Origin: a virus
Strand: one strand, 5' to 3'
Virus record (IMG/VR): IMGVR_UViG_3300009085_001018
Span: 1 to 61,905 of that record
Length of the DNA stretch: 61,905 nt
This document shows positions 36,045 to 61,070 of the stretch, piece by piece; the first letter of the stretch is position 1; the number at the start of each line of letters is the position of its first letter. Both the position numbers and the translations under genes were made by a program. The notes under the pieces are model-generated. The model saw only the letters and a program-made list of their open reading frames with translations. It had not been told where the DNA came from and did not search any database.

Positions 36045-38339
36045 ATGAAAATACTGCTACACACTGACTCGCCATTGTTATATTCAGGATTAGCTCGTTG
36101 TGGTAAGGAAATAGCAAAACGTTTAGTTGAATATACTACATTTGATGCCAAAACGAATAATAATATAAAAATATATGATGTAGTATATGCTGCATGGCAT
36201 TATCGTAATACTAAACACGATTTACCTTATTTTTTATACCCTTTAGAAAAATCTTCTAGTAAAGAAGCGGAACAATTCTCTCATATTTTAGCTGATGCAC
36301 AGCCTGATATAATTCTTTCTATAGGAGATCTTTGGAATTTTGAACATATACAACATGTTATAAATGTACATAAGGAATCTTTTCCAAATACTAAATGGGT
36401 TTTATGGCTTACTGTTGATGGGGAGCATTTACACCCTAGTTGGCATTCTATATTAAATTCAGCAGATGATATTAATGTATTTTCATACTTTGCAAAACAG
36501 GAAATATATAAGTATGCCGATATTCAAACAAATGTTATTTATCCAGGAGTTGATAAAACTATTTTTTTCCCTTCAGCTCCAATTATAAAAGAGAATACAC
36601 TTCCATTTAATTTAAAAGATACATTTTTAGTACTAAATATTAATCAAAATACTGATAGAAAAAATATACCTTTAACGATAGAGGCTTTTAAAGATTTTGC
36701 TATTGATAAAGATGATGTATTTTTATTACTTGTAACTGATCCAGCAGATCCTTTTGGTTTTGATTTATGGGATTTTGTAAAATATTTTGATTTAAGAAAA
36801 AAAGTTGCTATTACTAAAGAAGCGGGCCCTTTAAAAGGAATGTCAGATCAACAACTGAATTTAATATATAATTTGGCTTCTGCAAGTGTTAATACAAGCA
36901 TAGGTGAAGGTTTATCATTGCCTACCTTAGAAGCTATGGCTGTTGGAACACCTGTTTTAACTACTGATTATGCCGCTACAACAGAATTAATTAATCAAGG
37001 TGGCGGGTTTTTATTAAAAACATCAGGATATCTATATGGATTTAATGGTATTAAAAGAGCGATAGCATCGCAGAGTGATTTAGTAGAGAAATTAAATGTT
37101 TTATACAATGATTTCAAGAATCAGCATACTTTACGGAAAGAAATTAGTACAAAATCGCAAAAATTCACAGATCAATTAACTTGGGATGAGACAAGTTCTG
37201 CTTTAATGCAAAGGATAAATAAAGTAATGACAAAAAAGAACTTTAATTTTATTAAAGAACATGTTAAAATTAAAGAAATTAATCCTTTAATTGTCATACC
37301 TAGTTGGGGAACTCATTGTGGTATTGCAGAATATACAAAATATCTATTTGATGCAATACGTAAATTAGGGCAACATGTTGTAGTATACTCATCATATGAG
37401 TATCAAGAATTACCTAAAATAATAAAAGAAGGTAATTATAATGTAATTCATATACAACATGAATTTTCATTTTTTAAAGATAAAGAACAATTAAGAATTT
37501 TATTAGATCAACTACATACTTTAAATGTTAAAGTTGTTATTACTTTACATAGTTTAGTCCCAGGATTATCTTCATATAATGAGTTATTATTATCACGCGC
37601 TGATAATTTAATTGTACATTGTCAACAATTTAAAGATAAATTAGTAGAACGTTCTTCTGAAACAAAAGGGTTTTTACCTAATATTTGCGATATAGATGTT
37701 ATTGCTATGGGAGTAAGTGATTTAGCAATTTTAAAACAGGAGAATGTAGATCTAACTAAAAAGAATCTTAATATAAGCCATAATACACCAATTATTGGAT
37801 CATTTGGTTTTTTAAGAGATCAAAAAGGTTTTCATGATTATTTATTAGCGGTTAAATTATTAAAAGAGCAGTATAATGATGTTTTAGCGTTATTAATTTG
37901 CCCTAAACATGAATTTGGTAGCCAAGCATATGATGCATCATTCTTCAATTTTATTGAAAGACATGATCTACAAAATAATGTTTTATTAATTAGAGAATAT
38001 TTACCAGAGGATAAATTGCTTGCTGTTTTACAATGTGCTGATTTATTTGTTTTAAATTATCATGATGCTCCGACTGGTGGTGGTATTTCTGCAGCTGTGA
38101 AAACATTATTTAGAACACAACGCCCGATTATTGTTAATGATTCATTAGCATTTTTAGATTTAAATAATGAAGTTTTAAAGTTTAATTCTATAAATCCAGA
38201 AGTAATAGCAAAAACAATTCTTAAGGTATTTGGTGATGTTTCTCTACAACATACATTAGTTACTGCAGCAAATCGATATATAGAATTAAATAATTGGGGT
38301 AAAATAGCTCAAAAACATTTAGATTTGTATGCAAAATAA
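36045..38339 (+). CDS. Double GT-B glycosyltransferase (GT4-like, two domains)
   Basis: 764 residues with two GT-B units. The first (about 1-400) has SGLARCGKEIA, NINQNTDRKNIP and SIGEGLSLPTLEAMAVGTPVL, the GT4-type donor-site loop with EGLSLPTLEA. The second (about 410-764) has PSWGTHCGIAEYTKYLF, SFGFLRDQKGFHDYL and a degenerate APTGGGISAAVKT loop in the corresponding place. It should add sugars from nucleotide donors to a glycan. First gene of the island, behind GAAAGGAT. A bifunctional enzyme making two linkages is plausible. Confidence 0.85.
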   Translation: MKILLHTDSPLLYSGLARCGKEIAKRLVEYTTFDAKTNNNIKIYDVVYAAWHYRNTKHDLPYFLYPLEKSSSKEAEQFSHILADAQPDIILSIGDLWNFEHIQHVINVHKESFPNTKWVLWLTVDGEHLHPSWHSILNSADDINVFSYFAKQEIYKYADIQTNVIYPGVDKTIFFPSAPIIKENTLPFNLKDTFLVLNINQNTDRKNIPLTIEAFKDFAIDKDDVFLLLVTDPADPFGFDLWDFVKYFDLRKKVAITKEAGPLKGMSDQQLNLIYNLASASVNTSIGEGLSLPTLEAMAVGTPVLTTDYAATTELINQGGGFLLKTSGYLYGFNGIKRAIASQSDLVEKLNVLYNDFKNQHTLRKEISTKSQKFTDQLTWDETSSALMQRINKVMTKKNFNFIKEHVKIKEINPLIVIPSWGTHCGIAEYTKYLFDAIRKLGQHVVVYSSYEYQELPKIIKEGNYNVIHIQHEFSFFKDKEQLRILLDQLHTLNVKVVITLHSLVPGLSSYNELLLSRADNLIVHCQQFKDKLVERSSETKGFLPNICDIDVIAMGVSDLAILKQENVDLTKKNLNISHNTPIIGSFGFLRDQKGFHDYLLAVKLLKEQYNDVLALLICPKHEFGSQAYDASFFNFIERHDLQNNVLLIREYLPEDKLLAVLQCADLFVLNYHDAPTGGGISAAVKTLFRTQRPIIVNDSLAFLDLNNEVLKFNSINPEVIAKTILKVFGDVSLQHTLVTAANRYIELNNWGKIAQKHLDLYAK

Positions 38340-38348
38340 AGGATGAAA

Positions 38349-39275
38349 ATGGAGAATAATATTAAGATTGGAATTGGTGCACCTACATATAATTCTACAG
38401 TAAGATTAGAAAGACTATTAACCTCATTATATTTTCATCAAGACTTTAATTATTCATATCGAACAGTTATTTTAGATGATGGCACACCTAATCAAGAAAT
38501 GCGTTTGGGTGTAGAAGAATTAGCAAAACGCTTTAAAGTTGATTTTATTCAACATACAAATAATTGTGGTATTCCTAAATCATGGAATGATTTAACGAGA
38601 CATTTCGATACTGATATATCTATTTTATTTAATGATGATATATGTATTTGTAATGATAATTGGTTGAAATGTATAGTTTATGCATTACAAAATAATGAAA
38701 AAGTTGCCGCAGTTGGGTATCCATTAATACAAATAGATCCTTTATCTGGTCTACCAAATAAAAATTATAGTTTACCTAATTATGATACTTTACCTGGCCG
38801 CGTAGGAGCGGTTGTTGGATGTTGTTTTGCTTTTAAACGTAAAATTTTTGATGAAATTGGTGGGTTTGATGAAAATATTAAGAGTTTTTACGAGGAAACT
38901 GATTATGGATTTCAGATTGCTAAATTAGGATATTATTCAGTGATGCTTCCTTATCCACCAATTGAGCATTGGGGTTCACAAACATTTGCTAATAATTTTG
39001 AATTAAATATTATGTCCCCGGATGATAAAATTTGTTCAATGGAAGAATATCGTGAAATTATGAGCAAGAAATATGATATGTCTAGAATAGAACCAATACC
39101 AGGTAAAGTATATCGTATGGATTATTCACGAGTTTATTTTGCAAAAAAGTGGGGATGTAAAGATTATTACGATATTCCACAAGTTGAGGTGCATCATAGA
39201 TTAGTTGATATATTACCTAAGCTTCAGATGAAATATCTAGATAAAAATTTAAAAGAATGTATTTGTGAGATATAA
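38349..39275 (+). CDS. GT-A glycosyltransferase (GT2-like)
   Basis: About 308 residues; the ATG at 38349 has AAAGGA at good spacing, while ATG 38343 is too close. IGAPTYNSTVRLERLL starts the nucleotide-binding fold; ILDDGT and ILFNDDICIC (DxD-like) bind donor and metal. FAFKRKIFDEIGGFDENIKSFYEETDY is the acceptor-site segment typical of GT2. Transfers a sugar, probably to a growing glycan. Confidence 0.85.
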   Translation: MENNIKIGIGAPTYNSTVRLERLLTSLYFHQDFNYSYRTVILDDGTPNQEMRLGVEELAKRFKVDFIQHTNNCGIPKSWNDLTRHFDTDISILFNDDICICNDNWLKCIVYALQNNEKVAAVGYPLIQIDPLSGLPNKNYSLPNYDTLPGRVGAVVGCCFAFKRKIFDEIGGFDENIKSFYEETDYGFQIAKLGYYSVMLPYPPIEHWGSQTFANNFELNIMSPDDKICSMEEYREIMSKKYDMSRIEPIPGKVYRMDYSRVYFAKKWGCKDYYDIPQVEVHHRLVDILPKLQMKYLDKNLKECICEI

Positions 39276-39278
39276 AAT

Positions 39279-39893
39279 ATGAATCTTGATATACATGTCA
39301 GAGATGATCTATTAGAATTTTTTCCAAATTTTGAATATTTTAATTGCAAGCAACCGCACAGACTTGATTTTTCTTTGATAGACAATCTTGTTGGTATGCA
39401 GCAAGAAGCGTTTATTTTATATTGGATTTTAAAACAATTACGTGAACATTATGGTGTTGGGTTAGATATTGGGTGTGGACAGGACCCTCATTTAGCTTGT
39501 ATTGGTGTAAATGATTATTGTGGTGAACAACACCCTATATATGGTGGTAGATATTCACCACAAATAACAGGTTTAGCTGAACAAAGTTATAAATTATTTA
39601 ACAAAAACACATTTTCTTTTATTGTAATGAGCCATATTTTGGAACATGTTTGTAATCCAATTATAGTTTTTAGACAATGGTGTAAGTTATTGTGTAAGGA
39701 TGGTATTATGATATTATTAATGCCCGATGCTAGATATGAAAAAGGTAAATGGGACCCTACACATAAGAATTTTTATACACCAGAAGATTTTGAACAAAAT
39801 ATAATTAAATTAAATACCGATCTTATAAAAACAGAAGTTTTTAATGATTTGCATAACTTTTTTTCTTTAAATTATGTAGGGAGACGAATATGA
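39279..39893 (+). CDS. SAM-dependent methyltransferase
   Basis: 204 residues. GVGLDIGCGQDPHL near residues 62-75 is motif I. FIVMSHILEHVCNP near 111-124 is the SxxxEH motif of small-molecule class I enzymes (Methyltransf_11 type), followed by LCKDGIMILLMPD. Likely methylates a sugar. Overlaps the next gene in ATGA. Confidence 0.8.
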   Translation: MNLDIHVRDDLLEFFPNFEYFNCKQPHRLDFSLIDNLVGMQQEAFILYWILKQLREHYGVGLDIGCGQDPHLACIGVNDYCGEQHPIYGGRYSPQITGLAEQSYKLFNKNTFSFIVMSHILEHVCNPIIVFRQWCKLLCKDGIMILLMPDARYEKGKWDPTHKNFYTPEDFEQNIIKLNTDLIKTEVFNDLHNFFSLNYVGRRI

Positions 39894-40912
39894 AAATTTT
39901 ATTTCTTTTGAATCCAGAGCAAGATTATGGTGAATATTTCTTATATAATGGTCTGTGTGAATTATTAGGTGAAGATAATATTATATTATACCCATTTAAA
40001 TTAAGTTATATGGGATTTATGGATATGTCGTATATGTTGCATAACGAAAATAAAAGAGGTATGACAGCACCAGCTGCATATGTTAAATCACGTAAAATAC
40101 GTTTATATCCATTTGAAGAAATAGTAGAAGAAATGCAACATATAGATTTGATAGTTCTAACATCGCCACGTCATTATCCGTTACACGCAATGGAATTTAT
40201 TAAGAAATTATATGGCGGTAAATCACCTAAACCATTAGCATTTTGTGATTTTGAAGATGGTGATAATATCTGTACCGATATTATAGAAGAATATAAACCA
40301 CAATTTATATTTAAACGTGAATTGATACGTCAAATTGATAATATTTATCCATTACCATTTTCTGCATGTGTTCCACATTTAGATATTTATGAGGATTTAT
40401 GCAAGCTAGATAAAACACTTGATGTTTTTGCTTTATTTGGTAATACACATCCGTTGCGTGAAAGAGTGATCAAGTTTCTTTTAGAGCAGAATTTAAACAA
40501 TTCATATATTGGAATTGATACTGGTGCATTACCATGGCAAGATGAAAAGAGATTCCATATTCCTCCATTAAAGGGGTATATTGATTACTTAAAAACTATG
40601 GCATCAGCTAAAATAAATATAATTGTCCGTGGACATGGTAGAGATACAGTACGGTATTGGGAAGCAGCATCTTTTGAGACATTAATGTTAATTAAAGATC
40701 CAGGGATTATAATTCCTAATCCATATATTGATAAAGTGCATTGTGTTTATTTTAATGATATTTATGATTTACGTGAAAAAATAGATTATTATTTATCACA
40801 TGAACAAGAACGTAAACAAATAGCAGAAGCATGTAGACAGCATACTTTCAAATACCATACTAATTTTGCACAAGCAGCATATTTTATTGATATTATTAGG
40901 GATAAAATATGA
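39890..40912 (+). CDS. Glycosyltransferase-like protein (CgeB/GT-B type)
   Basis: 340 residues. LIVLTSPRHYPLHAMEF and the C-terminal VRGHGRDTVRYWEAASFETLMLIKDP (donor-site Glu) suit the single-module GT-B fold of CgeB-like or Glyco_trans_1_2 proteins. The next gene is of the same broad type, and the two overlap in ATGA. The sugar donor is unknown. Confidence 0.7.
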   Translation: MKILFLLNPEQDYGEYFLYNGLCELLGEDNIILYPFKLSYMGFMDMSYMLHNENKRGMTAPAAYVKSRKIRLYPFEEIVEEMQHIDLIVLTSPRHYPLHAMEFIKKLYGGKSPKPLAFCDFEDGDNICTDIIEEYKPQFIFKRELIRQIDNIYPLPFSACVPHLDIYEDLCKLDKTLDVFALFGNTHPLRERVIKFLLEQNLNNSYIGIDTGALPWQDEKRFHIPPLKGYIDYLKTMASAKINIIVRGHGRDTVRYWEAASFETLMLIKDPGIIIPNPYIDKVHCVYFNDIYDLREKIDYYLSHEQERKQIAEACRQHTFKYHTNFAQAAYFIDIIRDKI

Positions 40913-41889
40913 AAAAATTAAATATTTTATTTTTAGCTGAATGGTATCCAGCTAATATACAAAGGTGGTTGGCTGAAGGATTCAGATATATTGGATGTAA
41001 TGTTAAATTGGCTGGTACTGTTGTTACAAATCATTATGGGATAACATGGCAAGAAAAAGATTTACCAAAAGTTATTATGGATGTTCCTAAACATGACCCA
41101 ATTGATTTAACTAATGTTGTAGATACTGCAGTGAAAAATGGTTTTACTCCTGATGTATTAATATTAAATGATTGGTGGGATTTTAAAATAGAAAAAACAG
41201 AAAACAGAATACCTTTTTTATTAATTGAACATGAGGGGTGGGAAGCTAATTTAAAACGTATCGAAGAGTTTAAACCAACCGCAGCTTTTACAGGGCAACC
41301 ATTTGGAGTTCATGCAGAACCAAGAAAAGCAATATATCAAGGTTTTACATGGTTACCTGGTGCTTGTTTACCCGCTATACATCCATTATTTGATTATGAG
41401 AGGGAATTTGATTTCGCTTTATTAGCAATGATGTATGACCCAAGACCTCGTATATGTAATGCGTTGCAAGATAAGGGGTTACGTATTAAATTTGGTAATG
41501 TAGGAATTGATGAATATGCTATTATACATAATAAGTCTTTAACTACTTATGCATGCTCTAATGGTCAAGAATATATTAAATGGCGTGTTTTTGAAGCGAT
41601 GTCTATGGGGTGTATTGTGTTAAGCGATAAATTCTTTTTAATGGAACAATTATTTACTGAAGGTGTTCATTACTTATCTGTTAAAACAGATAAATTAGAT
41701 GATGGGCGAACCGCACTAAATGTAAATGACTTGTATGATAAAATTATGCTTTGTAGAAGAAACAAAGACCTTGTTGAGCGTATAAGACGTAATGCTTTTA
41801 TAGAAGTGCGTTCTAAACATACATATCTTGATAGAGCCCATATGATGTTAAAAAAAGCTGAGATTATTAAAACTGATTTTAAATTTTGA
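40909..41889 (+). CDS. Glycosyltransferase-like protein (CgeB/GT-B type)
   Basis: 326 residues. The N-terminal half has ILFLAEWYPANIQRWLAEGFRY; the C-terminal half has YIKWRVFEAMSMGCIVLSD, a donor-site segment close to that of the previous gene. Likely a paralogue-type pair of glycosyltransferases, acting at successive steps. Stop overlaps the start frame of the next gene. Confidence 0.75.
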   Translation: MKKLNILFLAEWYPANIQRWLAEGFRYIGCNVKLAGTVVTNHYGITWQEKDLPKVIMDVPKHDPIDLTNVVDTAVKNGFTPDVLILNDWWDFKIEKTENRIPFLLIEHEGWEANLKRIEEFKPTAAFTGQPFGVHAEPRKAIYQGFTWLPGACLPAIHPLFDYEREFDFALLAMMYDPRPRICNALQDKGLRIKFGNVGIDEYAIIHNKSLTTYACSNGQEYIKWRVFEAMSMGCIVLSDKFFLMEQLFTEGVHYLSVKTDKLDDGRTALNVNDLYDKIMLCRRNKDLVERIRRNAFIEVRSKHTYLDRAHMMLKKAEIIKTDFKF

Positions 41890-42862: not shown

Positions 42863-43927
42863 ATGAAACGGATATTAATTACGGGTGCTGGTGGGGCGCC
42901 AGCAGTTAATTTTATTAATTCTTTACGTTTAGTTGATGAACCAATGTATTTAGTTGGTACAGATATGAATAAATGGCATTTAGAATGGCCAGATTTAGAT
43001 AAAGCATATGTAGCTCCCTATGAAGCGACACACCCTAATTACATTAAATTTCTTAATGATATTATCAAAAAAGAAAAGATAGAATTTATTCATGCTCAAC
43101 CTGATATTGAAGTGCGTACTTTATCTGAAAATCGTAAAAAAATTAATGCCATGATGTTATTACCTAATAAAAAAACAATTGATATTTGTCAAAATAAATT
43201 TATTAGTGCTAACATTTGGGAAAAAAATGGAATACATTCTGTTAAGTCTTATACTATTAAAAATATTATTGATATACGAAGGGTCGGTAAAATTTTAGGG
43301 TATCCATATTGGATGCGTGCTTCTTCTGGCGCAGGAGGTCGTGGTAGTACTAAAGTAGAAAGTTTGGATATGGCTATCCATTGGTTTGGATATTGGAAAG
43401 CAAGAGATGTTGATTGGGTATTTATAGCACAAAAATTTTTAAATGGTAAAGATTTTGCTTTTCAATCTTTATGGAATAAAGGTAAATTAATTGTATCACA
43501 AGCACGTGAACGTCTAGAATATATTTATCCATATCTAGCTCCATCAAGAATTACTGGAACTCCAGCTGTTGCTCGGACCATAGCAAGAGATGATATTAAT
43601 AAGGTGGCTACCACAGCTATTACTTCTATAGATAAAAATGCAACTGGTATTTTTTGTGTTGATTTAAAAGAAGATAGTAATGGTGTTATTTATCCAACAG
43701 AAATTAATGCAGGAAGATTTTTTACAACAAGTTTATTTTTTAGTACAGCAGGTATTAATATGCCATATTATTATGTTAAACTTGCATATAATGAAAAATT
43801 ACCAAATTTGTTACAATACAATGCAATTAAAGATAATGTTTATTGGATAAGACATATTGATTGCCCAGCAGTTTTAATTTATGATGAAAAATTCAAAGCT
43901 GACGAATCTTATTGTAAAAAAGTATAA
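42863..43927 (+). CDS. ATP-grasp enzyme
   Basis: 354 residues. ITGAGGAPAVNFINSL starts the N-terminal Rossmann-like domain. LGYPYWMRASSGAGGRGSTKV near 147-167 is the ATP-grasp lid loop, and YPTEINAGRFFTTSLFF near 275-291 holds the metal ligands. Related to the carbamoyl-phosphate-synthase-like ATP-grasp group. It would join a carboxylate to an amine or alcohol with ATP, for example adding an amino acid or acyl group to a sugar; the substrate is not visible. Overlaps the HAD gene. Confidence 0.8.
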   Translation: MKRILITGAGGAPAVNFINSLRLVDEPMYLVGTDMNKWHLEWPDLDKAYVAPYEATHPNYIKFLNDIIKKEKIEFIHAQPDIEVRTLSENRKKINAMMLLPNKKTIDICQNKFISANIWEKNGIHSVKSYTIKNIIDIRRVGKILGYPYWMRASSGAGGRGSTKVESLDMAIHWFGYWKARDVDWVFIAQKFLNGKDFAFQSLWNKGKLIVSQARERLEYIYPYLAPSRITGTPAVARTIARDDINKVATTAITSIDKNATGIFCVDLKEDSNGVIYPTEINAGRFFTTSLFFSTAGINMPYYYVKLAYNEKLPNLLQYNAIKDNVYWIRHIDCPAVLIYDEKFKADESYCKKV

Positions 43928-44381
43928 ACTTCTAATCATGGATCTTGATGGTACTCTAGTTACTTTGAGATGTGATTGGGAAAAAGTTAAACAATTACGT
44001 AATTTAGGGCAAGAAGAAGAAGCACGAAAAATTGAATTGGAAGGAGTAAACGAAAGTATTCCCGTAGTTAGTGTCATTCACTTATTAAGACACTTTAAGG
44101 GTAAAAAAGCTTTATTTTCAATGAATTATAAAGATACAATAACAGCAGTATTGAAACAATTTAATTTATTATCAGAATTTGATATAATTGTTTCTAGGGA
44201 TTCTGTGTTTCATAAAAAACCTCATCCAGAAGGTTTACGAATAATTATAGATACATTTAAAATACCAAAAGAAGAAGTTATTTTTATTGGTGATAGAAAT
44301 ATTGATATTTTAGCAGGTAATAATTATGGTATTAGTACATTATTAGTACAGGAATTATCAAATGAACGATTATCCATATAG
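43881..44381 (+). CDS. HAD-family phosphatase
   Basis: 166 residues. MDLDGTLV near 20-27 (nucleophile Asp), SMNYKD (motif II), KKPHPEG (motif III Lys) and IGDRNIDILAGN (motif IV) are all present, so the active site is complete. Cap is short. Probably removes a phosphate from a sugar or sugar-phosphate intermediate. Overlaps the ATP-grasp gene by 47 bases and the methyltransferase by 20, so they are co-translated. Confidence 0.85.
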   Translation: MMKNSKLTNLIVKKYKLLIMDLDGTLVTLRCDWEKVKQLRNLGQEEEARKIELEGVNESIPVVSVIHLLRHFKGKKALFSMNYKDTITAVLKQFNLLSEFDIIVSRDSVFHKKPHPEGLRIIIDTFKIPKEEVIFIGDRNIDILAGNNYGISTLLVQELSNERLSI

Positions 44382-44910
44382 AATTTTTAAATATATCAGC
44401 AATCAAGTTACAGAAGAAGGGGGTATTCTATTGCTTCTTTATAATATGACAAGAGGATTAAAACCAAATATAATAGTAGAGATTGGTACAGGTACATCTC
44501 ATACAACATCAGCATTTTTAGAAGCTTTAGATGAAATAAATAAGCCAGCGTTATTATATACTATTGACCCAAATCCACATATAGAAAAAAGTATGGTTAA
44601 TCATCCTTTTCTATGTTCATATATTGGAACATCAGATGAGGCGTTTAATATATGGGGTAAAAATAGGTCAATAGATTTGCTTTATATTGATGGCAATCAC
44701 CATTATGAACAATTTAAAAGAGATTTTGAACAATGGTCAAAATATTTATCTAATAATGGTTATATTTTAATTCATGATACAAATAATCATTGGTGGCCAG
44801 ATATACCAATAGTAATTAAAGAAATTAGAAACACCAATCAATGGGATATGATAGAATTACCTTATGGATATGGAATAGTTATAATGCACAGGAGACAAAA
44901 TGAGTCTTAA
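44362..44910 (+). CDS. SAM-dependent methyltransferase (MTase_24/CmcI-like)
   Basis: 182 residues. IVEIGTGTSHTTSAFLEAL (motif I), LLYTIDPNPH, IDLLYIDGNHHYEQFKRDFEQW and YILIHDTNNHWW fit the CmcI-like/MTase_24 group, which often methylates sugars or small molecules. IDGNHHY is a hallmark of the group. Overlaps both neighbours. Confidence 0.85.
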   Translation: MNDYPYRIFKYISNQVTEEGGILLLLYNMTRGLKPNIIVEIGTGTSHTTSAFLEALDEINKPALLYTIDPNPHIEKSMVNHPFLCSYIGTSDEAFNIWGKNRSIDLLYIDGNHHYEQFKRDFEQWSKYLSNNGYILIHDTNNHWWPDIPIVIKEIRNTNQWDMIELPYGYGIVIMHRRQNES

Positions 44911-50713: not shown

Positions 50714-50725
50714 TTTGGAGGTAAA

Positions 50726-51718: not shown

Positions 51719-51727
51719 GAGATTAAT

Positions 51728-52673: not shown

Positions 52674-52749
52674 TAAACTAGTTGTTTAATTATTTTAATT
52701 GATGTACACGAATCTCAAATTTAGAAAAAAGATAGACTGGTTATAATTT

Positions 52750-52764
52750 TATTTGGCTGTACTA
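52750..52764 (+). repeat. Left arm of 15-bp inverted repeat
   Basis: TATTTGGCTGTACTA, the exact reverse complement of 53226-53240. It precedes AGGAGAC and the start at 52784; TATAAT at 52742-52747 lies just upstream. Confidence 0.85.
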
Positions 52765-52783
52765 TAAAAAAGGAGACAAAGTA

Positions 52784-53218
52784 ATGAAAAAACTAATTTT
52801 TCTAATAACTGTATTAGTATTAACTATGTTTAATTTTGTTTTAGCTGAAGATTTAAATATTGCACTTAAGCAAGGTGCTTTATTTACTTGGAAAAATCAA
52901 ACAGTAAAAAATCTTACTACTTTTGAATTAGCTAAAACGCAAGAGGTTGAATCATGGGGAAAATGGAATATTTTATGGGCTGGATGGTCATTAGATTGTG
53001 GGTTTGCGTATGATGCTAGTTCAATCAGTAATGGTGCAATCTTAATAGGTAGAGAATTTGGGACCATAGGTAATTATTTACCAATTAATTTCCCCTTAAA
53101 AGATAAAATTACAATCACATTATATCCAGCTGGCGTATATATTGATAATATTTTCGATCATCCAAAATCACAAGGATGTTCAGGAGGTGCTATTATCAAG
53201 TTAAGTATAAAATTTTAA
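52784..53218 (+). CDS. Secreted protein in an inverted-repeat-bracketed segment
   Basis: 144 residues. Residues 1-21 are a signal peptide (KK, hydrophobic core, FVLA then E) with a likely cut after Ala. The mature part is beta-rich with WGKWNILWAGWSLDCGFAY, and ends CSGGAIIKLSIKF, which could be a membrane or surface beta-strand. It has its own strong Shine-Dalgarno. Unrelated to the sugar enzymes around it. Perhaps a periplasmic or surface host-altering protein. Confidence 0.75.
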   Translation: MKKLIFLITVLVLTMFNFVLAEDLNIALKQGALFTWKNQTVKNLTTFELAKTQEVESWGKWNILWAGWSLDCGFAYDASSISNGAILIGREFGTIGNYLPINFPLKDKITITLYPAGVYIDNIFDHPKSQGCSGGAIIKLSIKF

Positions 53219-53225
53219 CACTTTT

Positions 53226-53240
53226 TAGTACAGCCAAATA
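53226..53240 (-). repeat. Right arm of 15-bp inverted repeat
   Basis: TAGTACAGCCAAATA, eight bases after the stop at 53218 and reverse-complementary to 52750-52764. No target duplication seen at the flanks. Confidence 0.85.
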
Positions 53241-53260
53241 TTACTACCATAGAGGATAAG

Positions 53261-54229
53261 ATGAAAAAAAGAGCATTGATTACAGGGATTAATGGACAAA
53301 GTGGTTCTTACATGTCTGAATTATTATTAGAAAAAGGTTACGATGTGTACGGATTAGTCCGTAGGCAAAGTAATGAAAAATTTGATAATATACAACATAT
53401 TCTAAATGATGTTACTCTTATACATGGAGATCTAACAGACCAAAGTTCTTTATTAGAAGCATTGGCTATTTCTCGACCAGATGAAGTTTATAATTTTGCT
53501 GCTCAATCATATGTTGCTGCTTCTTGGGAACAACCTGAATTAACTGCTAATATTACTGGTCTTGGTGTATTAAGATTATTAGAAGCAATTAGAAAATATA
53601 ATACTACGATTAAAATATTACAAGCATCAAGTTCTGAACAATTTGGTAGAGTTTTAGAAACACCTCAATTGGAAAAAACACCTTTTAACCCAGTTTCTCC
53701 ATATGCCGTATCAAAATGTTTTGCATATTCGATGATGCGTACATATCGTTTTAGTTATAACATGTTTGCATGTAATGCGATATCATTTAACCATGAATCA
53801 CCAAGACGAGGGCAAGAATTTGTAACACGTAAAATATCTATTGGAGTAGCTAAAATTAAATTAGGTCTCACTAATAAGATATACTTAGGAAATTTAGAGG
53901 CTAAACGTGATTGGTCTCATGCTAAAGATATAGTGCAAGGTATCTATCTTATTATGCAACATCATGATCCAGATGATTTTGTATTATGTTCTGGTGAGAC
54001 ACATTCAATTAAAGAGTTTTTAACTGAAGCTTTTAAATTAATTGGTATTAATGATTGGGCACCATATGTTGTAATTGATCAAAAATTTATGCGTCCAGCT
54101 GAAGTAAATATTTTATTAGGCGATTGCACTAAAGCTAAAAAAGTGCTCAAATGGAAACAAAAACATAATTTTAAAGAATTAGTAAAAGAAATGGTAGAAA
54201 ATGATATTAAATTATTACAAGAAAGTTGA
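53261..54229 (+). CDS. gmd: GDP-mannose 4,6-dehydratase
   Basis: 322 residues. ITGINGQSGSYMSELLLEKGYDV (NAD loop; given in parts: ITGINGQSGSYMSEL, LEKGYDV), VYGLVRR, FAAQSYVAASWEQP, ASSSEQFG (Ser-Ser-Glu) and YAVSKCF (Tyr-x3-Lys). NHESPRRGQEFVTRKI is diagnostic of Gmd. It turns GDP-mannose to GDP-4-keto-6-deoxymannose, the first step to GDP-fucose, rhamnose or perosamine-type sugars. No dedicated GDP-fucose synthase is recognised, so the island's epimerases or host enzymes may complete it. Confidence 0.93.
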   Translation: MKKRALITGINGQSGSYMSELLLEKGYDVYGLVRRQSNEKFDNIQHILNDVTLIHGDLTDQSSLLEALAISRPDEVYNFAAQSYVAASWEQPELTANITGLGVLRLLEAIRKYNTTIKILQASSSEQFGRVLETPQLEKTPFNPVSPYAVSKCFAYSMMRTYRFSYNMFACNAISFNHESPRRGQEFVTRKISIGVAKIKLGLTNKIYLGNLEAKRDWSHAKDIVQGIYLIMQHHDPDDFVLCSGETHSIKEFLTEAFKLIGINDWAPYVVIDQKFMRPAEVNILLGDCTKAKKVLKWKQKHNFKELVKEMVENDIKLLQES

Positions 54230-54636: not shown

Positions 54637-56895
54637 ATGCGTAAAATTATTTTTTCACATCATCGAGCACTTGGTGACGCGATCATGTTTTCTGCAGGGG
54701 TAAGAGACTTTAAACTTCTTTTTCCAGACATTAGCATTAATGTTGATACAAATCAACCTGCTGTATTTGAAAACAATCTGTATATAGATAAAACAATTAC
54801 AAGAAATGACGATGGTGTAGAGCGTTATAATGTTGGCTATCCGATGATAGGGAATGTTAATAATAGTGCTATGCATTTTTCTACAATGTTTCTTTTTGAT
54901 ATGATAGCGGTAGCAGATTTGCATAATGCATTACCCATAAAATTGGGAGAATTTTGTGCAACATTTGCTAATGGTACAGTTTGTGACCCACCATTGGGTG
55001 ATATAGAAAAACATAAAGCAATTTCAAAAGAACCATTTATATCTTTACGTAATAAATATAAAAATTTTTGTGAAGAATTTATACGTCAACGCGGTGATTT
55101 ACATTTAACAGATGAAGAGAAAAAAAAGAATATTATACGTGAATTGTATGATATTGATAAATATTGGGTAATAGCACCAGGTGGAAAAAGAGATTGTACT
55201 ACAAAGATTTGGGATTGGCGTAAATTTCAAGATGTTATTAATCATTTTAAAGGTAGAATACAATTTGTTACTATTGGTAAAAGTGATTTATTAGTTGAAA
55301 AATTAAATGGGGTTATAGATTTAACAGATAAATTTAATAAAGATATAAGGGGGTTGTTTTCACTTGTCTATAACGCAGAAGGATGCGTTTGTGGTCCAAG
55401 CGCTTTAATGCATATAGCCGCAGCGATTCCTTCAAGATGGGATAAAGAACGGAAACCTTGTGTAACTATTCTTGGTGGGAGAGAACCTTCATCATGGACA
55501 TGGTACTGTAATCATCAAGTTTTACATACAAATGGTGCTTTTGAATGTTGTGATAATGGTGGTTGTTGGAAAGCTAGAACAATACCATTACCAAAAGATC
55601 CGGCACATAATGATAATTTATGCAATACTACTGTTGTAAGTACTGGTCGTACAATTCAAGCATGTATGTACGCTATAACTGCAAATGATGTTATACGTGC
55701 GATTTCTAAATACTATGATGGGAACATATATACATATTTAAAAGAGAATATAATACTAAAAAAGAAAGAAAAAATAAAACAAGGTATAATTGAATTGCAT
55801 GTAAAAAAACTTAAAAAGACTATTAATTTATTAGGTAATCTTAATACATCAGGTGGTGGTGAACAATCATTAATTACAATCACTAAATTATTAATGAATC
55901 GTGGATGGAAAGTTAATTTATATCCATGGGGTAGTGTACATGCAAACTATTTAAATCAACAATTGCCTATCATGAAGCATTCATATGAAAATGGGATGTT
56001 AAAAAATATGAAATCTCACATACCATTATTATTTTATGCTAATGATTGTATCTGGGATTTTTGTAAAACCGGTCAACCATTTGTAGAAAAATCTTCAGAT
56101 CTTATTATAGGTATCAACTATTGTAATGGTGAGCTGCCAAAAACAGATTGGTTAGCAAAAACAAATAAAATAAGAGCAATAATATTTCAAAATTCTGAAA
56201 AACGTAATGAATTTGATAAAGATGCACTTGGATTTGAAAATACTAAACGTATAGAATTATTTGGTGCTATTGAATTGGATAAATTTTTAGAAGTTTGTAC
56301 TAAACAACGTACTGAAAAAGAACAATTAGTGATATTAAAACACTCAGTTAATGATTATCGTAAATATACCACTAAAGAATCTGTTGGCTCTGGTGAAAAA
56401 ATTCATTTATGGCAAAAGAACTTAGATAAAGAATTAGATACTAAATTCTATGAACGTCTTCTTAAAGATACCCATAATACTAGATTTGAGTTTATGGAAG
56501 CACACAAAGAACTTGTTGATTATTTTAAAAATGAACCAAGAATGGTATTTCATAAATGGAATAGTATGTCAGTTGAAGAATTTTTAAGTAAAGGTCATAT
56601 TTACTTATATAGGACTAGTAATATGTGGCGCGATCAATATCCAAGAACTGTAGCCGAAGCATTAGCTGTTGGGTTACCAATTTTGTCAGAACCAAGAGAT
56701 GGGACTAAAGATAGAATAATACATGGTGAAACCGGCTTCTATTGCATTGATTATGATTCATTTCTTTATGCAATAAAATTATTACAACGTAAAGAAGAAT
56801 ATAGACATAAGATTGGACTATTTTGCAAAGATTGGGCACGACAAAACATAAATCCTATTAAATGGGTTGATATTATAGAGGAATTAATTGAATGA
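54637..56895 (+). CDS. Fused GT9-like and GT4-like glycosyltransferase
   Basis: 752 residues. The first part (about 1-385) has ISHHRALGDAIMF-type start (FSHHRALGDAIMFSAG), IAPGGKRDCTTKIW and GCVCGPSALMHIAAAIP, the layout of GT9 heptosyltransferase-type enzymes. The second (about 390-752) has TSGGGEQSLITITKLL and FLSKGHIYLYRTSNMWRDQYPR then AEALAVGLPILSEPRDG, a GT4-type donor loop. A bifunctional enzyme making two sugar linkages is likely. It resembles the double enzyme at 36045 in design, not sequence. Confidence 0.8.
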   Translation: MRKIIFSHHRALGDAIMFSAGVRDFKLLFPDISINVDTNQPAVFENNLYIDKTITRNDDGVERYNVGYPMIGNVNNSAMHFSTMFLFDMIAVADLHNALPIKLGEFCATFANGTVCDPPLGDIEKHKAISKEPFISLRNKYKNFCEEFIRQRGDLHLTDEEKKKNIIRELYDIDKYWVIAPGGKRDCTTKIWDWRKFQDVINHFKGRIQFVTIGKSDLLVEKLNGVIDLTDKFNKDIRGLFSLVYNAEGCVCGPSALMHIAAAIPSRWDKERKPCVTILGGREPSSWTWYCNHQVLHTNGAFECCDNGGCWKARTIPLPKDPAHNDNLCNTTVVSTGRTIQACMYAITANDVIRAISKYYDGNIYTYLKENIILKKKEKIKQGIIELHVKKLKKTINLLGNLNTSGGGEQSLITITKLLMNRGWKVNLYPWGSVHANYLNQQLPIMKHSYENGMLKNMKSHIPLLFYANDCIWDFCKTGQPFVEKSSDLIIGINYCNGELPKTDWLAKTNKIRAIIFQNSEKRNEFDKDALGFENTKRIELFGAIELDKFLEVCTKQRTEKEQLVILKHSVNDYRKYTTKESVGSGEKIHLWQKNLDKELDTKFYERLLKDTHNTRFEFMEAHKELVDYFKNEPRMVFHKWNSMSVEEFLSKGHIYLYRTSNMWRDQYPRTVAEALAVGLPILSEPRDGTKDRIIHGETGFYCIDYDSFLYAIKLLQRKEEYRHKIGLFCKDWARQNINPIKWVDIIEELIE

Positions 56896-57437
56896 AGGAA
56901 TGGGAAATAATAAATTCTTTAGTTCCAATAGTTTTGTCAAATATTAAAGGATGTATAGTGGAAATAGGGTTGGGCAATTCTACTACGATACTTAATACAT
57001 ATGCTAAACAATTTAATAGAAAACATTATGCATGTGATAAAAAAAAGAGAGTTTGTGATTGGATTAAAAATAATATAGGAAATAATATAAATTTATATAA
57101 TTGTTTATCTTTTGATTTTATAAAGCAATTTAAAGATTGCCCCGCAATAATCTTTATTGATGGTAATCACTCTTATTCAGTAGTTAAACAGGAGGTAGAT
57201 TTCTTTTTACCTAAGTTAGTTTGTGGTGGGATAATGTTTTTACATGATACTTATATATGTAAAAGGTGGTATAAACGTTATTTAAAAATAGGAAAAGAGT
57301 CGGATACCTATAAAATTAGACAAGATTTAGAAAAGAATTCAGATGTTTATACCATGACTTTTCCTTATACTGCAGCTTGGTGTGGGTTAACTGTAGTACT
57401 TAAAAAGGATTTAAATAGACCTTATTATCAACAATGA
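56892..57437 (+). CDS. SAM-dependent methyltransferase (MTase_24/CmcI-like)
   Basis: 181 residues. IVEIGLGNSTTILNTYA (motif I) and AIIFIDGNHSYSVVKQEVDFF with ILHDTY-like MFLHDTY match the group of 44362. Likely a paralogue with sugar or small-molecule methylation. Overlaps the GT9-GT4 gene and the following gene in ATGA. Confidence 0.8.
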   Translation: MKEWEIINSLVPIVLSNIKGCIVEIGLGNSTTILNTYAKQFNRKHYACDKKKRVCDWIKNNIGNNINLYNCLSFDFIKQFKDCPAIIFIDGNHSYSVVKQEVDFFLPKLVCGGIMFLHDTYICKRWYKRYLKIGKESDTYKIRQDLEKNSDVYTMTFPYTAAWCGLTVVLKKDLNRPYYQQ

Positions 57438-58111
57438 ATGAATATAGTCATAAAGGTTCTTTAGGTGATATAATTTATTCTTTACCCGCTATTCTATCTT
57501 TGGGTGGTGGGATTATTAATATAGTTAAAAAAGCTCATTATGATACTTTGTATTCTCTTTTAGAAATTCAACCTAATATTAAAATTAATTGTACATGTAA
57601 AGGAATTAATTTAGATAAATATAGAAAAATAGATTATCACTCTAATCATAAAAAACATTTAGCACAAAGTCACGCAGAAGTATTAAATACTTTTGTAGAT
57701 TTATCTAAACCATGGCTTTTTAATATAGAACCGATAAAAGAAGCTGAAATAATTGTATCAAGAACAAGACGTTACCACGATAAAGAAGAAATAGATTGGA
57801 CTTTATTAAAAGAATATGTTGATAAAATATTGTTTTTAGGTACTAAAAAAGAATATGAAAGGTTTAAATTGAAACGATTTCCTGCTTTATATAGATATAA
57901 ATTTTGTAAAGATGGATTAGAAATGGCTAGAATTATAAAAGGAAGTAAATTATTTATAGGAAATCAATCTTTTGGGTTTTCTTTAGCCGAAGCTATGAAA
58001 CATCCAAGAGTATTGGAAATATGCTATGCGTACGATAACTGTAGACCTTCTGGAGATAGTTGGTACATATCTTTAACTAAAGAGGTAGTTAGACAATGCT
58101 TATTGAAATAA
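57434..58111 (+). CDS. GT9-like glycosyltransferase
   Basis: 225 residues, about 100 shorter than usual GT9. SHKGSLGDIIYSLPAIL (N-terminal motif) and SKLFIGNQSFGFSLAEAMKHP (donor side) are the key segments; the middle is compact. A short glycosyltransferase in a phage is plausible. Overlaps both neighbours. Confidence 0.7.
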   Translation: MNEYSHKGSLGDIIYSLPAILSLGGGIINIVKKAHYDTLYSLLEIQPNIKINCTCKGINLDKYRKIDYHSNHKKHLAQSHAEVLNTFVDLSKPWLFNIEPIKEAEIIVSRTRRYHDKEEIDWTLLKEYVDKILFLGTKKEYERFKLKRFPALYRYKFCKDGLEMARIIKGSKLFIGNQSFGFSLAEAMKHPRVLEICYAYDNCRPSGDSWYISLTKEVVRQCLLK

Positions 58112-58752
58112 AAAAACCAGGCAATGAATATAGAAAAATAATTTTAAAAGATTGCTATAGGGTTAAAGATATACCTAACGGAAGTTTAGATACTATATTT
58201 GATTTTGGGGCGAATATTGGTATTTTTTCTGTATTTATGAAGATGAGGCATCCTTTTACCAAAATTATTGCTATCGAACCTTTTTTTAAAGCTACTGAAG
58301 TGATGAAAAATAGCTTTTTTTGTCATAATATTTATTTAGAAGAAAAAGCTCTGGGTAATGGGAAACCGATTCATTTTAAAGAACGTGGTCATATTTTAGA
58401 TGGATTATGTACAGAGACAGATGAAGGGATTTTAATACCAACTATTTCTTTATGGGAATTATTTAATATATATAACTGTAAATTGACGGATAATTATTTA
58501 TTAAAATTTAACTGCGAGGGCGGAGAAAAGTATCTTATTGGAGATAAAAAATCAGAAGAGATTCTTTATAATGCTAAATATATATGTTTTCAAATTCATT
58601 ATAGGTCTCCAAGTACTAATTTTAATGAGTGGTTATCATTAGAAGAATATGACAATTGGATAAAGAAATTATTTACACATCATAAAATTAAACAATATTA
58701 TTGTTATAATAAAGAAGGGACAATACAATATAAAATAGCATGGAAAAACTAA
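58096..58752 (+). CDS. FkbM-family methyltransferase
   Basis: 218 residues. IFDFGANIGIFSVFMKM (motif I), IIAIEPFFKA, and the C-terminal ISLWELF...LLKFNCEGGEKYLI with Glu-Gly-Glu form FkbM order. FkbM enzymes O-methylate sugars or natural products. Overlaps neighbours by about 15 bases. Confidence 0.85.
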   Translation: MLIEIKKPGNEYRKIILKDCYRVKDIPNGSLDTIFDFGANIGIFSVFMKMRHPFTKIIAIEPFFKATEVMKNSFFCHNIYLEEKALGNGKPIHFKERGHILDGLCTETDEGILIPTISLWELFNIYNCKLTDNYLLKFNCEGGEKYLIGDKKSEEILYNAKYICFQIHYRSPSTNFNEWLSLEEYDNWIKKLFTHHKIKQYYCYNKEGTIQYKIAWKN

Positions 58753-59504
58753 TATTTAAAATAGAAGGAGATTTAAAAAATTCAGAAATAGTTTTTAGAG
58801 AAGCTAGACGAAATTTAAAGTTAGCACAAAGAAATAACCAAAAAGACATTAAAAATTTAGAAATTGAATTTTGGAATGCTAGAAATAATCTTAAATTATT
58901 AAGACGCAAATTTTTATATCTTACTAAACCTGATGATTTATATTCAGATTATAATTATTGGAAGAGACATGGTAGTATGAGAAATTGGGAAATTAAGTTA
59001 GGAAAAGCTTTGGTTCCTATTTTTAATATTAAAAATGCAGTAGATTTTGGGTGTGGCTTAGGGTCTTATTTGGAAGGATTAATATTAGGAGGAGTTGAAA
59101 AAGTTAGAGGATTTGATTTACTGTTTAATACTACTAAAGAAGCTATACCAGAAGGGATTAGACAATATATTAGTTACGGTAATGCGGGAGAATCTATAGA
59201 TTGTGGTAAATGGGATTGTGCTATATCTATTGAAGTAGCTGAACATTTAATAGAGGAACAAGCAGATATTTTTGTGGATAATTTAGTGAATGCATCTGAA
59301 AGAATTGTAATTCTCACTGCTTCTAATGCAGGGGGTAAATATCATATAAATAGGCAACCTAAAATTTATTGGATAAATAAGTTAGAAGATAGATGTTGGA
59401 AATATTCTGAAAATGCAGTAAATAAATTATTTAGTGCTTGGCAAAGATCAGGATGTCCTAATTATATTTTAACTAATTTAATGGTTTTCTATAAAAATGA
59501 GTAG
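58740..59504 (+). CDS. SAM-dependent methyltransferase with N-terminal coiled coil
   Basis: 254 residues: a coiled-coil N-terminus (about 1-60) then NAVDFGCGLGSYLEGLILGG (motif I), KWDCAISIEVAEHLIEEQ and VILTASNAGG. The coiled coil may dimerise or tether the enzyme. Overlaps both neighbours. Likely modifies a sugar in the island glycan. Confidence 0.75.
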   Translation: MEKLIFKIEGDLKNSEIVFREARRNLKLAQRNNQKDIKNLEIEFWNARNNLKLLRRKFLYLTKPDDLYSDYNYWKRHGSMRNWEIKLGKALVPIFNIKNAVDFGCGLGSYLEGLILGGVEKVRGFDLLFNTTKEAIPEGIRQYISYGNAGESIDCGKWDCAISIEVAEHLIEEQADIFVDNLVNASERIVILTASNAGGKYHINRQPKIYWINKLEDRCWKYSENAVNKLFSAWQRSGCPNYILTNLMVFYKNE

Positions 59505-60324
59505 ACCTGTTTTAGATCTAATAACTCAGGATATATGGAATAAATATTTTATTCCTATATATACTGCCCCTAAAGTAGTTGAAATAAAAAAGTTCTATAA
59601 AATCAGTATTTGCACTAATTCTATGGATAGACTTTATACTTTACAAGATGTTTATATAAAAAATATTGAAGATAATATAGATTACCCTAATATAGAATGG
59701 GTGTTATTGAATTATGGAAGTAAAGATAATATTAATAGTTGGGCTAAAGAGAAATTAACCCCCTATATTGACAGGGGATTAGTAAATTATTATGAAACTA
59801 CAGCTAAATATTATAGCATGTCTCATTCTAGAAATATTACCTTTCGTTTGGCTACAGGAGATATAGTTTTAAATGTAGATACTGACCATTTTGTTAATAA
59901 AGGATTTGCTACTAAAGTAAATGAATTAGCTAATCAAATATCAGAAAAGGTAGTTTTTGTTAAAAGTGGCAGGAGAAATAGAGGTAGATTAGGAATGTTT
60001 AAAAAAGATTTCTTATCTTTAGGTGGATATGATGAAGATATGATAGGATATGGTTATGATGATAAAGATTTATTAATGCGAGCATTTCATTCAGGATTTA
60101 AAATTTTATATACTGGGAGTAATTATTGCACTATGGTCAAAAATCATAGTCCTCATGCTAGTGGTAGATATCAGTATTCAAATTGGAAATACACAGAATC
60201 AAGAAATGCATTACTTTCATTGTTTAATTTATCTCGTGGAAAATTGATTGCTAATAAAGGAATACGGTGGGGTTCGGCAAAAGTATTTAAGAATTTCAAA
60301 TACAGTGAGAAAATTAAAATATGA
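59497..60324 (+). CDS. GT-A glycosyltransferase (GT7-like C-terminal pattern)
   Basis: 275 residues. ATGDIVLNVDTDHFVNKGF carries the DxD. GMFKKDFLSLGGYDEDMIGYGYDDKDLLMRA is the segment typical of galactosyl-type GT7/GT2 enzymes. A metal-dependent glycosyltransferase, transferring a hexose or amino sugar. Overlaps the following gene in ATGA. Confidence 0.8.
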   Translation: MSRPVLDLITQDIWNKYFIPIYTAPKVVEIKKFYKISICTNSMDRLYTLQDVYIKNIEDNIDYPNIEWVLLNYGSKDNINSWAKEKLTPYIDRGLVNYYETTAKYYSMSHSRNITFRLATGDIVLNVDTDHFVNKGFATKVNELANQISEKVVFVKSGRRNRGRLGMFKKDFLSLGGYDEDMIGYGYDDKDLLMRAFHSGFKILYTGSNYCTMVKNHSPHASGRYQYSNWKYTESRNALLSLFNLSRGKLIANKGIRWGSAKVFKNFKYSEKIKI

Positions 60325-61070
60325 AAAATCTAACAGTTTTAAACTTTAGAGAAAAGTGCCATCATTCTTTAGATAGTTTACTTCTATTAGTTAAAGCTCA
60401 AATAGAAAACAGTTTAGAATTAGGATGGAAATCAGAAGATATAATTATTTTATCTAATATAGATTTTGAGTATATGGGAATTAAGCCTATTATAATTCCC
60501 CTTAATGATTTCTGTTTTACTGGTTCTAAGATGTTTGGAGTTAAGTATCTATTCGAAAATGGATGTAAAGATGTTGTATGGTCACACGATTTGGATGCGT
60601 GGCAAAATGTAGAATTTAACTGCCCTGAATTTAAAGATGTTGGTTACGCTCAATATAGTAGACCTAAAGTTAATGGGGGGAGTTTATTTTGGAAACCAGA
60701 ATCCATAGATATAATTGATAGGATAGTCGCGCACCTTCTTAAAAAGAAAGAAAGAAAAGAAGAGCCTACCCTTAATTATATTTTAAGAAAATATCCAAAT
60801 AGAGTTAGTACTTTAAATTATACTTATAATGTTGGTTGTTCTGGATTTATAAAAAGGTATAATAAAAGTATTAAACCAATACATGTATGTCATTTTCATC
60901 CAACAAACAAATTAGCATGGGAAACGCATGCGTTAAATAGAACTGGTTGTGGTATATCCATCAGTTATAGATTGGAAAAATTAATACGTCAATATTACCC
61001 AAAGTTAGCAACAGCGTTGTCTAACAAAAATCAAAACACAGTAACAAAGGAGATGAAAAATGAAGACTAA
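60321..61070 (+). CDS. Putative GT-A glycosyltransferase
   Basis: 249 residues. VVWSHDLDAWQNVEF (DLD, DxD-like) near 87-101 and NGGSLFWKP suggest a GT-A enzyme; fold and Asp motif are the only support. Last recognised glycan gene of the island. Overlaps the small 61060 gene. Confidence 0.6.
   Translation: MKNLTVLNFREKCHHSLDSLLLLVKAQIENSLELGWKSEDIIILSNIDFEYMGIKPIIIPLNDFCFTGSKMFGVKYLFENGCKDVVWSHDLDAWQNVEFNCPEFKDVGYAQYSRPKVNGGSLFWKPESIDIIDRIVAHLLKKKERKEEPTLNYILRKYPNRVSTLNYTYNVGCSGFIKRYNKSIKPIHVCHFHPTNKLAWETHALNRTGCGISISYRLEKLIRQYYPKLATALSNKNQNTVTKEMKNED

Follow-up and report, generated by a model that had tools for sequence, protein, structure and literature searches.

Results

Position and integrity of the island

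We analyzed a stretch of 61,905 bases (hereafter the window), which is a single virus record (IMG/VR IMGVR_UViG_3300009085_001018), with a focus on an island of carbohydrate genes at positions 36045-61070 and on the serine (Ser)-rich gene that follows it. An earlier reading made without database searches (the sequence-only reading) had described about 25 carbohydrate-related genes running in one direction, mostly overlapping, between the capsid gene and the next likely structural gene. Both the arrangement and the placement held: the island contains 28 plus-strand open reading frames (ORFs) of at least 80 aa with overlaps at 16 of the 27 junctions, and it is flanked by the major capsid protein gene (34499-35518, plus strand; PHROG 3990, E 3.6e-38) and a small conserved ORF (35570-36004, plus strand) on one side and by a large gene at 61322 on the other. 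The head module precedes the island, with family matches for a head protease (PHROG 80) and for the capsid protein (PHROG 3990).

Positions 1-12999 and 13001-61905 of the window matched the two ends of a longer record, G001 (IMG/VR 3300027675_000004, 175,053 bases), at 99.99%; the two records are therefore the same phage, and its map is circular or permuted. The island itself was observed at about 100% in two further records, G001 (whole, 99.998% identical) and G002 (its first 9760 bases). An assembly chimera, which the sequence-only reading had named as a possible flaw, is ruled out because these other records carry the island.

A Ser-rich gene directly follows the island

An 82-aa ORF (61060-61308, plus strand) separates the island from the gene for a Ser-rich protein, of which the window holds the N-terminal 194 aa (61322-61905, plus strand) before its end cuts the gene. 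The whole gene, at 48322-54195 in G001, encodes 1957 aa with 32% Ser, arranged in multi-Ser tracts interrupted by K, R, E or Q. The gene in the corresponding place in a relative, G003, encodes 1002 aa, also with 32% Ser, and has SPSI repeats. The N-terminal domains of the two proteins are 32% identical (aa 1-219 versus 1-237, E 2e-17) and a C-terminal motif is 68% identical over 31 aa; the repeats differ. A third lineage, L078, has 79% identity in the connector, a 168-aa G001 gene that we named by position and that has no PHROG match. L078 encodes an 811-aa protein with 45% Ser, SSSSH repeats and a different N-terminal part; an ORF read as HNH-like comes next and then the connector, on a contig too short to show an island. 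Downstream genes in G001 had PHROG matches for a tape-measure protein and a tail protein.

Two poly-Ser proteins were also observed in the structural region of another relative, G004, one of them homologous to a G001 tail protein. All six Ser codons were used in the tracts of the G001 protein, the G003 protein and one G004 protein, and five in the other G004 protein. The longest run of a single Ser codon was 2-4 in these four proteins, with TCN and AGY codons mixed. TCN and AGY codons are not connected by single synonymous changes, and their mixing suggests selection for Ser, to which duplication of mixed units could add. The Ser-rich protein had no match in Pfam or PHROG, its N-terminal part gave one weak PDB match (E 0.064), and six peptide patterns from that part found no viral locus beyond its own record.

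The G003 gene at 43019-44743 stops right where the Ser-rich gene starts (44744), and the gene before it encodes a GT17. The product of 43019-44743 resembled polypeptide GalNAc-transferases (GT27) in 15 PDB sequences at E<=0.1 (best 1.5e-5), over only 78 residues, and Pfam assigns it to GT2.

A GT9-GT4 fusion co-occurs with Ser-rich genes across viruses

The 3' part of the island encodes a fusion of GT9 and GT4 glycosyltransferase domains (54637-56895, plus strand; PF01075 and PF00534), which served as a sampling marker. Viral contigs were sampled with a profile built from the glycosyltransferase (GT) fusions of the window and of two further loci, L112 and L114, giving 37 loci including the window's own, which grouped into 30 clusters at 90% nucleotide identity. 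We dropped the L112 and L114 clusters, which had been found through poly-Ser (L226 is the L114 contig), together with the window's own, leaving 27. A Ser-rich ORF, defined by a 40-aa stretch of at least 60% Ser, was observed within 10 kb of the fusion in 18 of the 27 clusters versus 0 of 28 control loci, the latter consisting of 17 random-pattern records and 11 distant capsid relatives, some near-identical and not biome-matched. Window-like fusions (48-70% identity) had such a neighbor in 8 of 17 clusters (p 0.0001) and distant, L112-like fusions (23-31% identity) in 10 of 10. When the controls were enlarged by 60 loci selected for a repeat that resembles Ser codons and lies outside long ORFs, 7 of 88 had a Ser-rich ORF, and against this larger set p was 2e-9 for all 27 clusters and 0.0003 for the 17 window-like ones. 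Every Ser-rich ORF lay on the strand of the GT gene (31 of 31, near-identical contigs counted separately). The count held at 16-18 of 27 over thresholds of 0.4-0.8; at the lower settings of 0.4-0.5, a minus-strand ORF overlapping the capsid gene brought in three control loci, which are related Gordonia phages.

Much of the 3' cassette of the window was found beside Ser-rich genes at two of these loci. The order in L219 was a Ser-rich gene, the GT9-GT4 fusion, methyltransferase-like genes, a GT7C, a protein with a DXD motif and an 88-aa relative (49% over 67 aa) of the 82-aa ORF, while L240 carried a Ser-rich gene, the fusion, methyltransferases, the DXD protein and a second Ser-rich gene. The Ser-rich ORFs of L243 and L253 differed in their N-terminal parts; where the tract ends, or close to that point, both had a similar short segment of the WRDRTE/WSDRTEQSGS type.

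The fusion had no match among 50,697 GenBank phage records, and two peptide patterns, not an exhaustive search, found one locus in 84,980 species genomes. This one locus, L254 (CAJVXN010000005.1), is a contig of a bacterial metagenome-assembled genome; it carries a distant-subtype GT9-GT4 cassette and a Ser-rich ORF of 912 aa, and two of its ORFs match G001. It is therefore probably phage DNA that was binned with a bacterial genome, and a possible host lead. A model of the fusion (predicted local distance difference test, pLDDT, 80.8) placed its C-terminal half in the GT4 fold, where many GT4 enzymes, SdgB and TarM among them, had tied ranks, so that the fold names no function; the N-terminal half was barely covered by the comparison.

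The start of the island is conserved in place among relatives

The first gene of the island encodes a dual GT4 glycosyltransferase (36045-38339, plus strand; PF00534 and PF13439). This gene follows the capsid gene and one small ORF in all six relatives (G003, G004, G005, G006, L005 and L007) that have 61-80% capsid identity and contigs reaching past the capsid gene; two small ORFs rather than one were called in L005. Records of the window's phage were excluded from this count, L054 and L055 are alike and were counted once, and L006 and L008 end too early. Orthologues of the small ORF were in place in the same six relatives, and the flanking structural genes were syntenic on both sides of the island. 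No dual GT4 was found in the five searched records of distant capsid relatives (21-27%).

The G003 island comprises 27 ORFs (at least 90 aa) over 27 kb, about two of them selfish elements, and includes genes for a UDP-galactopyranose mutase and the GT17. The island extends over at least 30 kb in G005 and at least 12 kb in G006, in both cases to the contig end, and that of G005 adds DegT, GHMP-kinase, transketolase/E1-like and B12-radical-SAM genes. In G004 the island place holds just the dual GT4 and a GalE-like SDR that carries an insertion; relatives of the island GT2, GT-B and methyltransferase genes are found upstream of the terminase-like gene of this phage, together with a weak GT2-like gene.

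Partial matches to the dual GT4 were observed in 10 records of the phage collection, none covering 80%. Among five annotated matches examined, Mae-JY09 has the identical order of capsid gene, small ORF and GT4, and S-CBS4 and TJE1 carry a GT4 with a methyltransferase inside or adjoining the structural genes. The dual GT4 model (pLDDT 78.7) had as its best PDB match B736L of chlorella virus NY2A (3oy2; TM score normalized to the target 0.77), which was also the best sequence match and has been proposed to act on chlorovirus glycans (PMC4691112).

Enzymes encoded in the island

All genes below are on the plus strand. Seven GT proteins passed the Pfam cut-offs. Beside the dual GT4 and the GT9-GT4 fusion, these were a conserved GT2 (38343-39275; PF00535, E 6.4e-12; alignment A4 of 5 orthologues), two GT-B type enzymes (39890-40912, conserved; PF13524, E 1.4e-15, 70% identity in G003 and 48% in G004; and 40909-41889; PF13524, 69% in G005), a second GT2 (46799-47626; PF00535, 25.2 bits) and a GT2/GT7C (59497-60324; PF10111, PF00535 and PF02709; 52% in L219). 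Two further proteins are GT-like by reading and neighborhood. The GT9-like one (57434-58111) had no family match and has a 31% relative in L112, downstream of the L112 GT9-GT4 gene. The other, encoded by the last gene of the island (60321-61070), is an uncharacterized protein, possibly a GT, that had one family match below and no Pfam match above cut-off; it has a conserved DXD-type motif (HDLDAWQN) and relatives of 55-57% identity in the Ser-rich modules of L219 and L240. Neither 59497 (best E 0.021) nor 60321 (best E 0.39) gave a convincing match in PDB profile searches. Glycosyltransferases of several groups were present as the sequence-only reading had said, but its three fold groups are better described as several families in two folds, GT-A and GT-B.

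Methyltransferases above cut-off also numbered seven. Six were found with Pfam (39279-39893 and 49931-50713, PF13489; 41886-42833 and 48623-49183, PF08241; 44362-44910 and 56892-57437, both of the MT24 type, PF13578), and the seventh is an FkbM methyltransferase (58096-58752; TIGR01444, 38.6 bits, cut-off 37.7). An eighth (58740-59504) was weak, with PF13489 at 17 bits, below cut-off, and has a relative at 56% in L240. The "nine or so" first proposed was therefore a slight overcount.

Three SDR enzymes and Gmd were recovered as described earlier: two adjacent nucleotide-sugar SDRs (44900-45856 and 45847-46791; PF01370), a GalE-like SDR conserved in the clade (50726-51718; PF01370; 57% in G003, 49% in G004 with the insertion) and the GDP-mannose 4,6-dehydratase Gmd (53261-54229; PF16363, E 2.7e-119; TIGR01472, 397.5 bits against an NCBIfam equivalog cut-off of 415). 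The UGD-like enzyme was likewise found (51728-52537; PF00984 and PF03721), as a short UDP-sugar dehydrogenase-like protein of 269 aa that had no C-terminal domain match. A 270-aa form at 53% identity in G006 suggests that the short length is a maintained feature and not the result of a break. The HAD phosphatase-like protein (43881-44381; PF13419) and the radical SAM enzyme (49165-49953; PF04055, E 1.2e-12) passed their cut-offs, while the SPASM domain assigned to the latter and the ATP-grasp-like enzyme (42863-43927; PF02786, 19.0 bits, cut-off 19.8; NF009402, E 1e-24, below cut-off) did not.

The non-carbohydrate ORFs were one at 47856, HNH-like by reading and with no family match, and two at 52784 and 54289 with no match. 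Selfish elements were common in the islands (window 47856-48659; L069 13146 and 15487; G003 21365-22510; G004 24682-26763). HNH-like ORFs were among them, recognized from weak Pfam matches in G005 and by reading in the window, as were an ORF read as TnpB-like and, inside a sugar SDR, an insertion resembling an intein. An intron around the HNH-like ORF at 47856 was considered and rejected, as the window had no Rfam match.

Membrane steps, export and DNA modification

The PF02397 phosphoglycosyltransferase and the PF01943 flippase were absent from all five records searched (G001, G003 and the fragments G004-G006); no profiles were run for PF00953, Wzy or ABC exporters. A hydropathy screen of the same records showed no ORF longer than 200 aa that has at least three hydrophobic segments; one 189-aa ORF with seven such segments is a 9-bp tandem repeat. 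As to export genes of the SecA2, SecY2 or Asp kind, Pfam scans of the window's island gave no Sec family match, and no Sec profile was run. A ThyA-type enzyme (PF00303) was not found in the five records, a weak argument against the one route of DNA hypermodification to which that search applies.

Other features of the phage

The window capsid protein is distantly related to those of actinophages, and tblastn matched it in 127 actinophage records, with 25.5-26.2% identity in those listed. For Fowlmouth and Sadboi, two such phages, the parts of the structural region that were covered contained no annotated glycosyltransferase. No near DNA match of window positions 34000-58000 to phage records was found, the window contained no tRNAs, and the host is presumably a bacterium.

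Terminase and portal were named from order and reading, without a family match. The likely large terminase gene (24178-26997, 939 aa) contains a LAGLIDADG-type insertion (phrog_11023, E 1.5e-4) that is likely an intein; the terminase-like orthologues have 551 aa in G003 and 531 aa in G004. An 867-aa ATPase-like protein (29825-32428; phrog_10401, E 2e-6) is encoded between the portal-like gene and the head protease, with relatives in G003, L005, L007, G005 (1814 aa) and G006 and none seen in G004. Tandem arrays were observed at 2461-2999 (9-bp unit, 60 copies), 12933-13093 (6-bp, 27 copies) and 1-74 (11-bp, 6.7 copies), the second of which covers the point where the G001 record starts and stops.

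Discussion

Gene content and position support a multi-sugar glycan island inside the structural genes, as first proposed, with the glycan probably methylated. The sequence-only reading had left open whether the product would camouflage the virion or rebuild the host surface. Our results favor the virion and speak less for the host surface, because both the window's phage and G003 have the Ser-rich gene directly 3' of the island and L078 has one before the shared downstream gene, because the G003 glycosyltransferase beside the Ser-rich gene resembles a polypeptide GalNAc-transferase, and because PF02397, PF01943 and large polytopic ORFs were lacking in the five records, three of them fragments. 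On balance we favor, with some reserve, an interpretation in which the island is a self-contained module for O-glycosylation of the virion with its own mucin-like acceptor.

In this proposed mechanism, the SDR, Gmd and UGD-like enzymes would make nucleotide sugars, as their families suggest, and cytoplasmic glycosyltransferases, presumably including the initiating enzyme, would assemble the glycan on Ser (perhaps threonine) residues of phage structural proteins late in infection. We infer Ser residues of virion proteins as the site because of the position of the island, the candidate acceptor and the co-occurrence across viruses. Methyltransferases and other tailoring enzymes would then modify the glycan. 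The main acceptor would be the giant Ser-rich, mucin-like protein encoded right after the island, which is probably a scaffold for the virus's own sugar coat. Its N-terminal domain and short C-terminal motif may tether it to the particle, with the poly-Ser tracts bearing dense sugars and projecting outside. Such a coat would likely serve in protection, in adhesion to host or particles, or in receptor mimicry.

We are evenly divided on a broader proposal, that widespread uncultured phages encode their own mucin, in the form of densely O-glycosylated, probably methylated poly-Ser fibers covering the virions and convergent with the serine-rich repeat (SRR) glycoproteins of bacteria. As part of the same proposal, the cassette would be modular and would combine the GT9-GT4 fusion, methyltransferases, other glycosyltransferases and a Ser-rich protein with an interchangeable N-terminal domain. 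Phages of this class may have escaped notice because the fusion was unmatched in the phage records and found at one locus in the species genomes.

Several observations weigh against a dedicated Ser-rich acceptor. The controls were shorter than the sampled loci (339 kb versus 623 kb for all 37), and the nine of 27 clusters without a Ser-rich ORF were every one window-like. The profile was seeded with L112 and L114, both found through poly-Ser, and the distant subtype with its complete association resembles L112. The GT27-like gene belongs to G003 and not to the window, and G004 has no Ser-rich gene at its island end. In S-EIVl and Mel-JY01 the related glycosyltransferases have other genes around them and are close to primase or replication genes, and no convincing Ser-rich ORF was found in the roughly 20 kb read in Mae-JY09, S-CBS4 and TJE1; the single Ser-rich match in Mae-JY09 (20.7 kb) runs antisense to annotated genes. 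The reverse association, from poly-Ser to glycosyltransferase, did not hold. Among the first 50 poly-Ser loci a GT was present within 10 kb in 7 of 20 with Ser-rich ORFs versus 0 of 30 without (p 0.0008; 0.0019 after removing the window's own family), counting PF00535 and PF00534 matches, some below cut-off, and with the Ser-rich threshold chosen after the PF00535 result. A hold-out of the next 50 loci gave a GT2 or GT4 within 10 kb in 1 of 15 versus 1 of 35 (p 0.5), and we do not rely on the pooled p of 0.0008. Of the 120 pattern loci, 100 were searched for GTs in this way. PF00535, the only one of the two families run on the 17 random-pattern records, had no match in them. The failed hold-out indicates that many viral poly-Ser proteins have none of these glycosyltransferases nearby, and such proteins may be mere linkers.

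We consider it unlikely that the island instead acts late in infection on the O-antigen, capsule or teichoic acid of the host, remodeling its surface to block superinfection or aid release. Enzymes of the GT4, GT9 and GT2 families together with Gmd and SDRs are typical of O-antigen gene sets, and the phage enzymes could lengthen lipid-linked glycans made by the host. Pelagimyophage glycosyltransferase islands in structural regions (PMC7029224) and jumbo cyanophage clusters (PMC7824862) have been interpreted in this way, in the portions of those papers available to us. The linkage to Ser-rich genes argues against a host-surface role, as does the absence of PF02397, PF01943 and any large polytopic ORF from the five records, three of them fragments.

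A less probable alternative still, which we rate as doubtful, is that the glycan is placed on other virion proteins (the capsid protein, a 129-aa ORF at 34080 or the tail tube) in the manner of mycobacteriophages, with poly-Ser serving as flexible linkers. The constant place of the dual GT4 after the capsid gene in all six relatives reaching it is consistent with this, as are the Mae-JY09 arrangement without a convincing Ser-rich gene and the hold-out poly-Ser proteins, which mostly had no glycosyltransferase nearby. The Ser-rich neighbor of the GT9-GT4 fusion in two thirds of the clusters and the retention of very long mixed-codon Ser tracts speak for a dedicated acceptor. Synthesis of a small molecule or modification of phage DNA is very improbable: the ATP-grasp-like, radical SAM and HAD proteins and the many methyltransferases would fit it, and phages have been reported to glycosylate DNA (cited in PMC12619734, seen in part), but at least seven glycosyltransferases placed among structural genes do not, and no ThyA-type enzyme was found for the one route searched, in five records of which three are fragments.

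Phage glycan islands and glycosylated virions are already known, and earlier work interpreted the islands of environmental phages as modifying the host surface or perhaps as "stuffer" DNA (PMC3037559 and PMC7029224, both in excerpt). Among the matches listed in a search of mostly open-access literature on phage glycosyltransferases and virions, available in part, we found no report of the pairing with a Ser-rich protein. Such a protein beside the enzymes makes self-decoration by a virus a testable question. If the interpretation is correct, phages build mucin-like coats, which would alter views of their adhesion, stability and recognition, and the cassettes would offer new enzymes, cytoplasmic O-glycosyltransferases for proteins and methyltransferases for sugars, together with a poly-Ser acceptor already in place.

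Precedents on the virion itself come from mycobacteriophages (Che8 and relatives; Freeman 2023, as cited by others), in which glycans are reported on capsid and tail-tube subunits, at their C-termini. Phage-encoded glycosyltransferases are tied to virion glycans there. Glycosyltransferase genes are linked to structural genes in the window's phage and its relatives, as expected for virion glycosylation; here glycosylation is predicted from the genes, and about 25 genes and a Ser-rich neighbor are present, unlike in the mycobacteriophages. Chlorovirus PBCV-1 encodes Gmd and glycosyltransferases and carries O-methylated sugars on a virion protein (PMC4691112, in part). The island shares Gmd and glycosyltransferases with it, and the dual GT4 best matches chlorovirus B736L in sequence and structure; the chlorovirus differs in its eukaryotic algal host and in an N-linked glycan on the capsid protein Vp54, and the excerpt mentions no Ser-rich acceptor.

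Large glycosyltransferase islands are also shared with pelagimyophages and cyanophages. Those of pelagimyophages lie in the structural region, carry tail fibers and were read as modifying the host O-chain (PMC7029224), and the lipopolysaccharide clusters of cyanophages S-SSM7 and P-SSM2 sit near hli03, phoH and tRNAs (PMC3037559). The available parts of these accounts mention no Ser-rich acceptor, unlike the window's island.

In SRR clusters (such as those of GspB, Fap1 and the L. reuteri SRRP), which come with accessory Sec systems, a very long Ser-rich acceptor is encoded beside two to ten glycosyltransferases (PMC6973325, in excerpt). The same linkage of a Ser-rich acceptor gene to glycosyltransferase genes was observed in G001, in G003 and in 18 of the 27 GT9-GT4 clusters. 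In SRR systems the GtfA/GtfB priming pair adds N-acetylglucosamine to Ser or threonine; the GT4 fold of the phage fusion is one that many enzymes have and does not point to such a function. No SecY2-sized polytopic ORF was seen in the five records, three of them fragments. The phage island is richer in sugar genes, especially methyltransferases, and its candidate acceptor lies among phage structural genes, where display on the virion is predicted.

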